Source of the DNA: Ariolimax columbianus
Lineage: Eukaryota; Mollusca; Gastropoda; Stylommatophora; Arionidae
NCBI GenBank assembly: GCA_036924085.1
Contig: JAVGWX010000004.1
Coordinates: forward strand, 83,099,941-83,163,940
Length of the DNA: 64,000 nt
Reading direction: 5' to 3'
Below are positions 23,849 through 30,200 of the stretch, piece after piece (positions within the stretch are counted from its first letter, which is position 1; every line of letters begins with the position of its first letter). A program made the translations under genes and the position numbers. The notes below the pieces were generated by a model, which did no database searches, was not told the DNA's origin, and saw nothing but the letters and a program-made list of their open reading frames with translations.

Positions 23849-24118
23849 TTTAACTTAACTTAACTTAGCGTCTTTATTCTGGTTTAGAAGACCCTGCAGA
23901 GTCTGTATACAACCAGTTTCATTTACATCACCTTGCTCTAAAAGCTATGCGCATCGAATTTATTCTTAAATGCATTAACTGTCCCTGCCTCCACTACCTC
24001 CTGTGCCAATGCATTCCCTCTTCTAGACACTGTAAGTGAGTTTTTCTGAGTCATTCCTCATAATTATAATTCTGGAATCTCACAATCAGCTTTGTCGCGC
24101 TTTTTTGTATTCTTTGCA
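23849..24118 (-). mobile_element. CR1-like LINE 3' portion (left part, host of copy A)
   Basis: The 3' tail (TTAAC)n at 23852-23868 and the conserved GCAGAGTC/CTGGTTGTATAC end are followed upstream (minus strand) by degraded C-terminal RT coding sequence. The element is interrupted at 24118 by the rRNA-headed LINE and resumes at 30201, as shown by alignment to the uninterrupted relative at 48712-49418. Confidence 0.8.
24107..24118. repeat. 12-bp target-site duplication of copy A (left)
   Basis: GTATTCTTTGCA is repeated exactly at 30189-30200, directly after the (GAA)n tail. Confidence 0.95.
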
Positions 24119-24756
24119 ATCTGGGGCGAGTCTCTCGGTGGCTCGATTGGCGCGCATCCAGTGTTCGTACAGCGATCTCAGTCCCGCCAGGCGGAGTGAG
24201 AGCGCGGCTTGCCCACGAAGCTCGCCCGCGTCTCCCCGGCAAGCTAGCGGGACAAGTTTGGTGGTGTTGTACCGCCGGTAACGGTGCGTTACTGTAGTCC
24301 GTACCGAGAAGCTTTGTCAGTCCGTGAGGTTTGTCGAAGGCTAGCGCGTATAGCCAATCTCGACAGTTCGTCTCGCTCGAGGTCCTTCTCTCGCAATAAG
24401 CTTGGGACCGGTAATTGGAAAGCAGGAATCGTGCCTAATGGCACTGTCCTCGCCCGACCAACCGGTCGGAGAAGGGCAGCCCGGCAGGCAAATTTCGTCT
24501 CTAGTACCAGTGAAAATCAACGCCGGGGCCGTTAGGATCCGTTCTGCACAGAGCGCTGCCATCCCTCCCCGAGCGAGCCCGGTCGGTCGGTCGGTGTGTG
24601 TACGGGGCGGCCAGGCGGTCCTAGGTCGACGGGTGAGGGACGGAAGGGTAACAACCCTCCGTCCGTTAGTCGGTCCCTGCGGCCGTCCTCGTGAGGCTTT
24701 TACACATCCATCCATCCGACCAGTGTGTGTGGCAAACACGGTTCGTCTCCGACAGA
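24119..24756 (+). other. 5' external transcribed spacer-like leader
   Basis: A GC-rich, CpG-rich block that starts at ATCTGGGG and runs directly into 18S rRNA. Copy B carries a clearly homologous block (38473-39107) with shared CGATCTCAGTCCCGCCAGGC and CGACAGATATCTGGTTGATC. Position immediately upstream of mature 18S and base composition fit a 5' ETS. Whether the first base equals a pol I start cannot be told from sequence alone. Minus- and plus-strand open frames here are compositional. Confidence 0.75.
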
Positions 24757-25922
24757 TATCTGGTTGATCCTGCCAGCAGTCATATGCTTGTATCAAAGAT
24801 TAAGCCATGCATGTCTAAGTTCACACTGTCTCACGATGAAACCGCGAATGGTTCATTAAATCAGTCGAGGTTCCTTAAATGACACGATCCTACTTGGATA
24901 ACTGTGGCAATTCTAGAGCTAATACATGCTTACCAAGCTCCGACCCTCGCGGAATGAGCGCTTTTATTAGTTCAAAATCAATTGTCGTTTCCCCTTACGG
25001 GGTTGCGGCGTCCCCACTGGTGACTCTGGATAACTTTGTGCTGATCGCATGGCCTCATGTGCCGGCGACGCATCTTTCAAATGTCTGCCATATCAAATGT
25101 CGATGGTACGTGACATGCCTACCATGTTTGTAACGAGTAACGGGGAAACAGAGTTTGATTCCGGAGAGGGGAGCATGAGAAACGGCTACCACATCCAAGG
25201 AAGGCAGCAGGCGCGCAACTTACCCACTCCCGGCACGGGGAGGTAGTGACGAAAAATAACAATATTGGAATCTTTCGAGGTCCTGTAATTGGAATGAGTA
25301 CACTTTAAATCCTTTAACGAGGATCTATTAGAGGGCAAGTCTGGTGCCAGCAGCCGCGGTAATTCCAGCTCCAATAGCGTATATTAAAGTTGTTGCAGTT
25401 AAAAAGCTCGTAGTTGGATCTGAGGCGCAGGCGGGCGGTCCGGCTTGCGCCGTTTCACTGCCCGTTGTCTCCTGTCCTACCGTCTGCCGGCTCTCTCCCG
25501 CGGGTGCTCTTCGCTGAGCGTCCCAGGTTTACTTTGAAAAAATTAGAGTGTTCGAAGCAGGCCTCGGCTGCCTGAATAATGGTGCATGGAATAATGGAAT
25601 AGGATCTCGGTTCTATTTTGTTGATTTACGGAACTGGATGTAATGATTAACAGGGACAAACGGGGGCATTCGTACTGTGGCGTTAGAGGTGAAATTCTTT
25701 GATCGCCGCAAGACGAGCTACTGCGAAAGCATTTGTGAAGAATGTTTTCATTAATCAAGAACGAAAGTCAGGGGCGCGAAAGACGATCAGATACCGTCGT
25801 AGTTCTGACCATAAATGATGCCGACTTGCGATCTGCAGGAGTTGTGGCTTAATTTGACTCAACACGCCCGGTTCAAATACTGTAATGATTTACAGACTGA
25901 TAGCTCTTTCTTGATTTGGTGG
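24757..25922 (+). rRNA. Partial 18S rRNA, retrotransposon-borne pseudogene
   Basis: It begins TATCTGGTTGATCCTGCCAG, the eukaryotic SSU 5' end. It continues through GTGCCAGCAGCCGCGGTAAT (about 25345), the V4 region and GGCTTAATTTGACTCAACAC (about 25846) to TGATAGCTCTTTCTTGATTT just before the junction. Roughly the last third of 18S is absent. Around 25840 an internal block is also missing: sequence jumps from CTGCAGGAGT to the GGCTTAATTTGAC segment, while copy B retains the intervening part. Several substitutions at normally invariant positions indicate it is not a functional gene. Confidence 0.93.
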
Positions 25923-26300
25923 GTCTAATAGGGAATGTGTGCTGGAATTAGACCCTCGGAAGACAGGTTAGTTTTACCCTACTGATGACAGGTCGTTGCT
26001 ACGGTAATCCTGCTCAATCTGAGAGGAATTGCAGGTTTCAGACATCTGGTTCACATGCGTGGCTGATAAGCCAATGGTGCGAGGCTACCATCTGAGGGAT
26101 TATGGCCGAACGCCTCTAAGCTGGAATCCCGCCTGGATATGCGACGATATTCTTAATACCACTGCGACGGGAGGCAACGATATGGTTATGACCTGGGGCT
26201 CGCGTCTCAGCCCGACCTGGTCGAGCCGCAGAAAGAGGTCTCTGCCGTCCCGCCGATCAAAGCGGGCGAGGACCTGTCCGATATTGACCCCACGCGGCGT
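25923..26300 (+). rRNA. 28S rRNA 3'-terminal fragment fused to 18S
   Basis: Starting at CTAATAGGGAATGTGTGCTG the sequence follows the end of LSU rRNA: AGACAGGTTAGTTTTACCCT, TACGGTAATCCTGCTCA, GAGAGGAATTGCAGGTTTCA, CCAATGGTGCGAGGCTACCA and GAACGCCTCTAAGCTGGAAT. It then has a 3' tail region with GCCGATCAAAGCGGGCGAGG. ITS1, 5.8S, ITS2 and most of 28S are missing. The exact 3' limit is uncertain. Confidence 0.9.
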
Positions 26301-30100: not shown

Positions 30101-30165
30101 ATGGCAGTGTCGACAGTCTCAGGATGACAGCTGCTTTCTTCGAACAAATTCAAGTTAACGTCTGA
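27108..30165 (+). pseudogene. Copy A ORF2 (endonuclease-RT-RNase H), degraded
   Basis: The pieces, in order, are as follows. AP-endonuclease: ILQWNVEGVINKK, IDVACIQETHLNNN, VVGDFNSHSERWG and SDH (27160-27760). RT: GYRPISLLSCVGKLMERMI, QAGFRQHRSTEDQ, VHLEKAFDKVW (first catalytic Asp of the VDLEKAF motif reads His), QGVPQGEVLSPTLFLVYI, FADDLAMW. RNase H: FTNGSV (catalytic Asp reads Asn) and FRAEAEAL. Relative to copy B, about 45 codons are deleted just after SDH, stops occur near 28345 and 29050, and most of RNase H plus the Cys/His finger is deleted near 30075. It ends at DKLYGSVDSLRMTAAFFE, then the stop, ~10 nt and (GAA)n. Confidence 0.93.
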
Positions 30166-30188
30166 CAGCGTACGAAGAAGAAGAAGAA

Positions 30189-30200
30189 GTATTCTTTGCA
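30189..30200. repeat. 12-bp target-site duplication of copy A (right)
   Basis: GTATTCTTTGCA matches 24107-24118 exactly. Confidence 0.95.

Follow-up and report, generated by a model that had tools for sequence, protein, structure and literature searches.

A LINE family of Ariolimax columbianus that travels with an ETS-like, 18S and 28S ribosomal RNA head

For the LINE inserted at 24119-30188 of the DNA analysed here (64,000 nucleotides of Ariolimax columbianus, contig JAVGWX010000004.1; hereafter the window), the question is how its 5′ end came to consist of ribosomal precursor sequence, and whether this head moves with the element. The preliminary description had proposed that external-spacer-like DNA, 18S, the 28S 3′ end, a leader, an ORF and a (GAA)n tail moved as one unit, and that this belongs to a LINE family with an rRNA precursor at its head. 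The parts of this insertion (copy A) are as follows.

24107-24118, unstranded: 5′ TSD, GTATTCTTTGCA, identical to 30189-30200
24119-30188, + strand: whole insertion of copy A, inside the exact 12-bp TSD
24119-24756, + strand: ETS-like head adjoining the mature 18S, first letters ATCTGGGG as in copy B
24757-25866, + strand: 'clean' 18S 5′ part, Rfam about 1-1209 (RF01960, 793.5 bits for 4-1116)
25867-25924 (end about), + strand: decayed 18S tail (about 1210-1274), then the 18S/28S junction
25925-26413, + strand: 28S 3′ segment, reaching the mature 3′ end (RF02543 to 3399/3401)
26414-27170, + strand: leader
27171-30165, + strand: remnant of the EN-RT-RNase H ORF, with stops, frameshifts and deletions (RVT_1, 8.7e-31, in 28348-29052)
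30174-30188, + strand: (GAA)n 3′ tail
30189-30200, unstranded: 3′ TSD, exact copy of GTATTCTTTGCA

The exact 12-bp duplication described earlier around the block was borne out. Among 200,000 random pairs of window positions at a fixed offset, an 11-mer was shared at a frequency of 9e-5 and a 12-mer at 5.5e-5. The joined flanks of copy A match an uninterrupted relative elsewhere in the window (49044-49412) across the insertion site, with 80.6% identity over 371 aligned columns, and the whole block is therefore one insertion, as had been claimed. Both rRNAs named in the block were matched by Rfam in copy A. The 18S match covers 24760-25835, and the clean 18S part has an internal deletion next to 25843, ahead of the boundary between clean and decayed 18S. 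The 28S match reaches model position 3399 of 3401 at 26411. As the 28S match continues this far, the junction of 28S and leader formerly placed at 26300, which is about 110 bp too early, was rejected and moved to about 26413, where the last letters of the 28S read AGATTTGT, which we take to be the mature end of large-subunit rRNA. The DNA upstream of the 18S is a putative external spacer (ETS), a label drawn from its place directly 5′ of the mature 18S and from its GC content (0.61 vs 0.42 for the window).

By comparing the window with itself (matches of more than 150 bp touching 23000-40000), two further copies, B and C, were found.

39108-39118, unstranded: copy B 5′ TSD, GGATCTGTTGA
39107-31730, − strand: whole insertion of copy B, with its own 11-bp TSD
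38473-39107, − strand: ETS-like head, its 5′ end 7 nt longer than that of A
37239-38472, − strand: clean 18S, Rfam 1-1209 (RF01960, 935.3 bits for 4-1116, continued to 1209)
36787-37301, − strand: tandem 18S/28S-junction units B1-B3
36189-36660, − strand: decayed 28S 3′ segment (RF02543, 68.6 bits for 36191-36594; the upstream part lies beyond that match)
35450-36188, − strand: leader
31756-35671, − strand: EN-RT-RNase H ORF, split between two frames that overlap (33197-35671 and 31756-33279)
31730-31741, − strand: (GAA)n tail
31719-31729, unstranded: copy B 3′ TSD
8682-10635, − strand: copy C, 5′-truncated inside the RT, 94.7% identical to B (C-terminal part of RVT_1, and RNase_H)

The order of parts in copy B is that of copy A: ETS-like DNA, 18S, 28S 3′ end, leader, EN-RT-RNase H ORF and (GAA)n. 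The two 5′ ends lie at the same ETS position save for the 7 extra nucleotides in B, and the 28S of copy B ends in AGAGTTGT, one change from the end of copy A. All three copies carry a (GAA)n tail, and the head is present in both of the copies in the window that are long enough to show one. No TSD of copy C was recognised by eye, and the joined flanks of copy B matched no other stretch within the 64-kb window. As copy B repeats the layout at another site, this is a multi-copy LINE family that travels with an ETS-18S-28S head, seen as two insertions with different TSDs and a common order and common junctions. The objection that no other copy might share these junctions is thus answered, within the 64-kb window, by copy B. 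For an assembly artefact, or for rDNA fragments and a LINE nested by chance, no supporting point was found; two copies with different flanks and TSDs, diverging by 5-24% depending on the part, and the empty site of copy A make this hardly credible, and it was rejected on copy B and that empty site. An R1/R2-type insertion at a fixed rDNA site was also ruled out for A, B and C, since the DNA around them is unrelated and their TSDs or flanks differ.

The protein places the family among the APE-type LINEs, with an APE-like endonuclease, RT and RNase H in that order on one strand. In copy B the Pfam matches are Exo_endo_phos_2 (2e-18), RVT_1 (8.1e-38) and RNase_H (9.1e-17), and the ORF is broken by a single frameshift near 33240-33280. 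Relatives of the protein with solved structures include LINE-1 ORF2p and R2. The marks of TPRT are present in the form of TSDs of 12 bp (A) and 11 bp (B), the (GAA)n tails and the 5′-truncated copy C. Between A and B, dN/dS is 0.11 in EN-RT (659 codons, with 2 codons holding stops in A excluded), which shows that coding constraint acted on both lineages once A and B had diverged; the C-terminal part gives 0.36 over 296 codons. B and C, compared in the same order, give 0.21 (133 codons) and 0.25 (494 codons).

The A-B dS is 0.79 in EN-RT vs 0.28 in the C-terminal part (31756-35671 against 27171-30165), and 78/212 vs 21/101 fourfold sites differ. With the higher divergence in EN-RT than in the C-terminal part, the LINE body may itself be a mosaic. 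A pattern scan of the three forward frames of the leader found no CCHC motif in A or B, which hints that ORF1 might be missing from the family. When relatives of the ORF were sought, three stretches of viral_contigs fitted the pattern and none was confirmed, while 2 of 27 in genome_contigs were confirmed as LINE-like RT at 28% and 26% identity. These two (L001:851-1885 and L002:131-1033) lie in contigs labelled as bacterial symbiont or MAG, and they probably represent eukaryotic contamination. A 21-mer of the leader had no exact match in viral_contigs.

If the head had simply been captured once and carried along, its parts should have aged with the body. Between A and B, however, identity over aligned letters is 95.5% in the 18S vs 76.3% in the 28S (p = 3e-27), with 76.8% in the ETS, 80-82% in the leader and 83-87% in the ORF. 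Changes in both copies were counted against the conserved (capital-letter) columns of the Rfam consensus, which were covered at 1-643 and 756 to about 1100 of the 18S and at about 2969-3161 and 3290-3399 of the 28S. At the 405 columns of the 18S there are 10 changes in A only, 1 in B only and 8 shared; at the 140 columns of the 28S there are 6 in A only, 22 in B only and 10 shared, with 2 columns scored as both-different. The private changes of B therefore amount to 1/405 in the 18S vs 22/140 in the 28S (p = 5e-13), whereas those of A, which serve as a control, do not differ in this way (10/405 vs 6/140, p = 0.26). The total departures of A also differ (18/405 vs 18/140, p = 0.001), because the shared decay sits in the 28S; shared departures are commoner there (10/140) than in the 18S (8/405, p = 0.010). 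With the 18S of copy B nearly free of private changes and its 28S rich in them, either the 18S came from functional rRNA far later than the body did, or it has been constrained. Neutral co-inheritance of the whole head was rejected, the 18S being too clean at conserved columns. Of the earlier proposal, the part that stands is the family with an ETS-18S-28S head; the part that falls is a single capture simply carried along.

Constraint would rescue a single capture. The head could have been inherited vertically under purifying selection on the 18S, which would serve nucleolar retention, an internal promoter or camouflage as host rRNA. The similar divergence of ETS, 28S and leader and the equal 5′ starts of A and B, but for the 7 nt, speak for this. 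However, the 8 shared departures of the 18S are presumably arthropod-typical, whereas the rRNA parts downstream share decay, and the variable V4 is only slightly less conserved than the remaining 18S (100-bp windows of 95% and 91% A-B identity in V4 vs 93-99% elsewhere). Selection would account for a clean 18S but hardly for a clean unit lying beside decayed units of the same sequence in copy B, and we consider this explanation improbable.

The high A-B identity is limited to the 18S, which could also reflect gene conversion after insertion, either among the dispersed copies or with rDNA, that homogenised this stretch alone. Yet the ends of the near-identical block are set by rRNA anatomy. It begins 13 nt 5′ of the 18S start (the last ETS mismatch is at 24743) and ends at the decayed 18S tail. 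In addition, the differences inside the block point largely to decay of A. With B as reference, C>T or G>A changes in A make up 26/49 of the 18S differences, and 12/49 are located at CpG. This bias fits a copy A that has been decaying in place, by about 3-4% in the 18S, after inserting with a clean 18S. Gene conversion is therefore very unlikely.

Copy B has at least three tandem 18S/28S-junction units at 36787-37301 (− strand), at spacings of 196 and 180 bp, and copy A has one. These units in the 5′ UTR of copy B look like the 5′ monomers of LINEs; mouse L1 has such monomers in tandem.

The junction between clean and decayed 18S gives a second view of the age of the head. In copy B the clean 18S ends at Rfam 1209 (...GACTCAACACG) and the decayed 18S tail follows directly. 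Copy A shows one mismatch in the last 24 nt up to the same boundary, and then the decayed tail. A 63-nt piece of 18S that occurs in each of the copy B units has 0 mismatches in B1 (37301-37239), 9 in B2 (37105-37043) and 4 in B3 (36925-36863), and the contrast of B1 with B2 and B3 together is significant (p = 0.005). Within one element, clean 18S thus adjoins old, decayed copies of itself.

This arrangement could be explained by recurrent template switching, in which the element RNA would start in the decayed 18S/28S units and the RT would use the 18S homology to jump to nascent pre-rRNA and read it as far as its 5′ end, so that each copy gains a new head. The boundary between clean and decayed sequence would then be the edge of the 18S homology, as found in both copies, and the clean B1 next to decayed B2 and B3 would be expected. 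It is also known from human L1/28S chimeras (n=18) that LINE machinery can join rRNA (PMC13174262). Against this, the switch would have to be near-obligatory, as a jump of one kind is required for each of the two headed copies in the window, and an ETS divergence of 23% is high for a recent common source. We regard recurrent switching as somewhat unlikely, though a serious competitor.

The ETS is the difficult part for any renewal of the head. Its A-B divergence is 23%, with 11 gaps opened in the alignment, vs only about 3-4% decay of A in the 18S, and this contrast is the main objection to a recent pre-rRNA source shared by both. For the heads to be fresh pre-rRNA, either fast evolution of the ETS or two ETS/rDNA types in the host would be required. 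The ETS has diverged about as much as the 28S and the leader, which would fit simple co-inheritance of the ETS. The differences in the ETS are balanced in direction, and transitions make up 62/142 of them vs 71/109 in the 28S (p = 0.0009); the ETS may thus have diverged by a process other than that of the 28S, although misalignment near indels could mimic this. The longest identical run in the ETS spans 34 columns, a length that 4 of 2000 column shuffles attained. The clustering is not distinctive, as identical columns cluster in the leader too (36 columns, reached in 35/2000 shuffles) and in the 28S (21 columns, 0/2000, with the gap columns of B's extra units included).

Taking these points together, we favour, with a probability of about 0.5, the reading that this family of APE-endonuclease, RT and RNase H LINEs moves as a chimeric pre-rRNA/LINE RNA, with rDNA-resident masters as the preferred source and template switching a close second. 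The fusion of the leader to the mature 3′ end of the 28S and the jump from 18S to 28S would have arisen once, before the split of A and B, either through template jumping or through the deletion of part of an rDNA unit. The body would have carried the captured 28S 3′ end and 18S segment ever since, and both would have decayed with it. Full-length templates made since then would be co-transcripts that run from a fixed point in the ETS, through 18S of functional quality, into the element. The ETS-18S head would have been taken from functional rRNA at, or shortly before, the making of each copy, unless the 18S was strongly constrained.

In the preferred route, the masters would sit in deleted rDNA units and be read from the rDNA promoter, and homogenisation of the rDNA would keep the master 18S clean. 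An rDNA-resident master would account for the obligatory head, the constant start and the constant boundary. More tentatively, going by the layout of A and B, the LINE may form part of an aberrant rDNA unit whose Pol I transcript, from the pre-rRNA start, serves as the template; each full-length copy would then be newly headed with ETS-18S, and host rRNA would be a self-renewing supply of 5′ UTR and promoter. Dispersed copies would be largely dead on arrival. If the 5′ ends in the ETS-like sequence correspond to the Pol I start, these copies would be without the upstream core promoter. The routes through an rDNA master and through template switching predict the same boundary, and the headed copies compared number two.

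R1 and R2, and likewise R8 and R7, resemble this family in being LINEs tied to pre-rRNA, and R7 inserts in 18S. R8 inserts into 18S genes (PMC7650587). R1/R2-type elements occupy fixed rDNA sites, whereas the three copies here are found in unrelated DNA. Outside rDNA, R1 elements can keep upstream 28S sequence, 7-28 bp of it in the melanogaster type and none in the ancestral type (PMC2718515); copy A, in contrast, carries about 1.75 kb of ETS and 18S plus the 28S 3′ end. The LINE-1 chimeras of mammals (with U6, 5S or 28S) likewise have a structural RNA fused 5′ of a LINE within one insertion and one TSD. For human LINE-1/28S chimeras, 18 loci with 28S pieces of 50-482 nt, 83% of them in sense orientation, have been described, and the term '18S' does not occur in the main text of that paper (PMC13174262). 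Such chimeras are one-off events, whereas the chimera described here forms a recurring family and contains ETS-like DNA and 18S as well. In SINEs derived from 5S or 28S rRNA, the rRNA-derived part is mobilised by LINE machinery (PMC13174262), but these are non-autonomous, while in this family the LINE itself bears the rRNA head.

The swapping of LINE 5′ UTRs, which a 2026 study speculates to come from chimera formation (PMC13174262), and 5′ monomers likewise show a 5′ part that evolves apart from the ORF; in this family the donor can be named as pre-rRNA. Titles and the first parts of abstracts in the open-licence literature (for some searches the best 15 of 119 and the best 15 of 95) named no LINE with an ETS-18S-28S head. 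LINEs have changed their 5′ ends repeatedly in evolution by a route that is unclear, and this family would be a natural case with an identified donor RNA, in which old and new parts of the element can be dated against very well conserved sequence. It would also link site-specific rDNA elements with dispersed LINEs, and makes the supply of LINE RNA by Pol I testable.

Among the other ORFs of the window, 3 of the 23 listed were compared with Pfam and gave no match. The window also contains several repeat arrays. A minisatellite-like array at 51170-53404 is built from about 140 copies of a 16-bp unit and is open in three frames of the − strand, and about 51 copies of a 21-bp unit at 59934-61001 leave both strands with long open frames. 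Related 37-bp units form arrays at 5224-5345 and 11733-12084, and a 42-bp array at 56727-57625 has the part CCTGACCCTGA in common with them.
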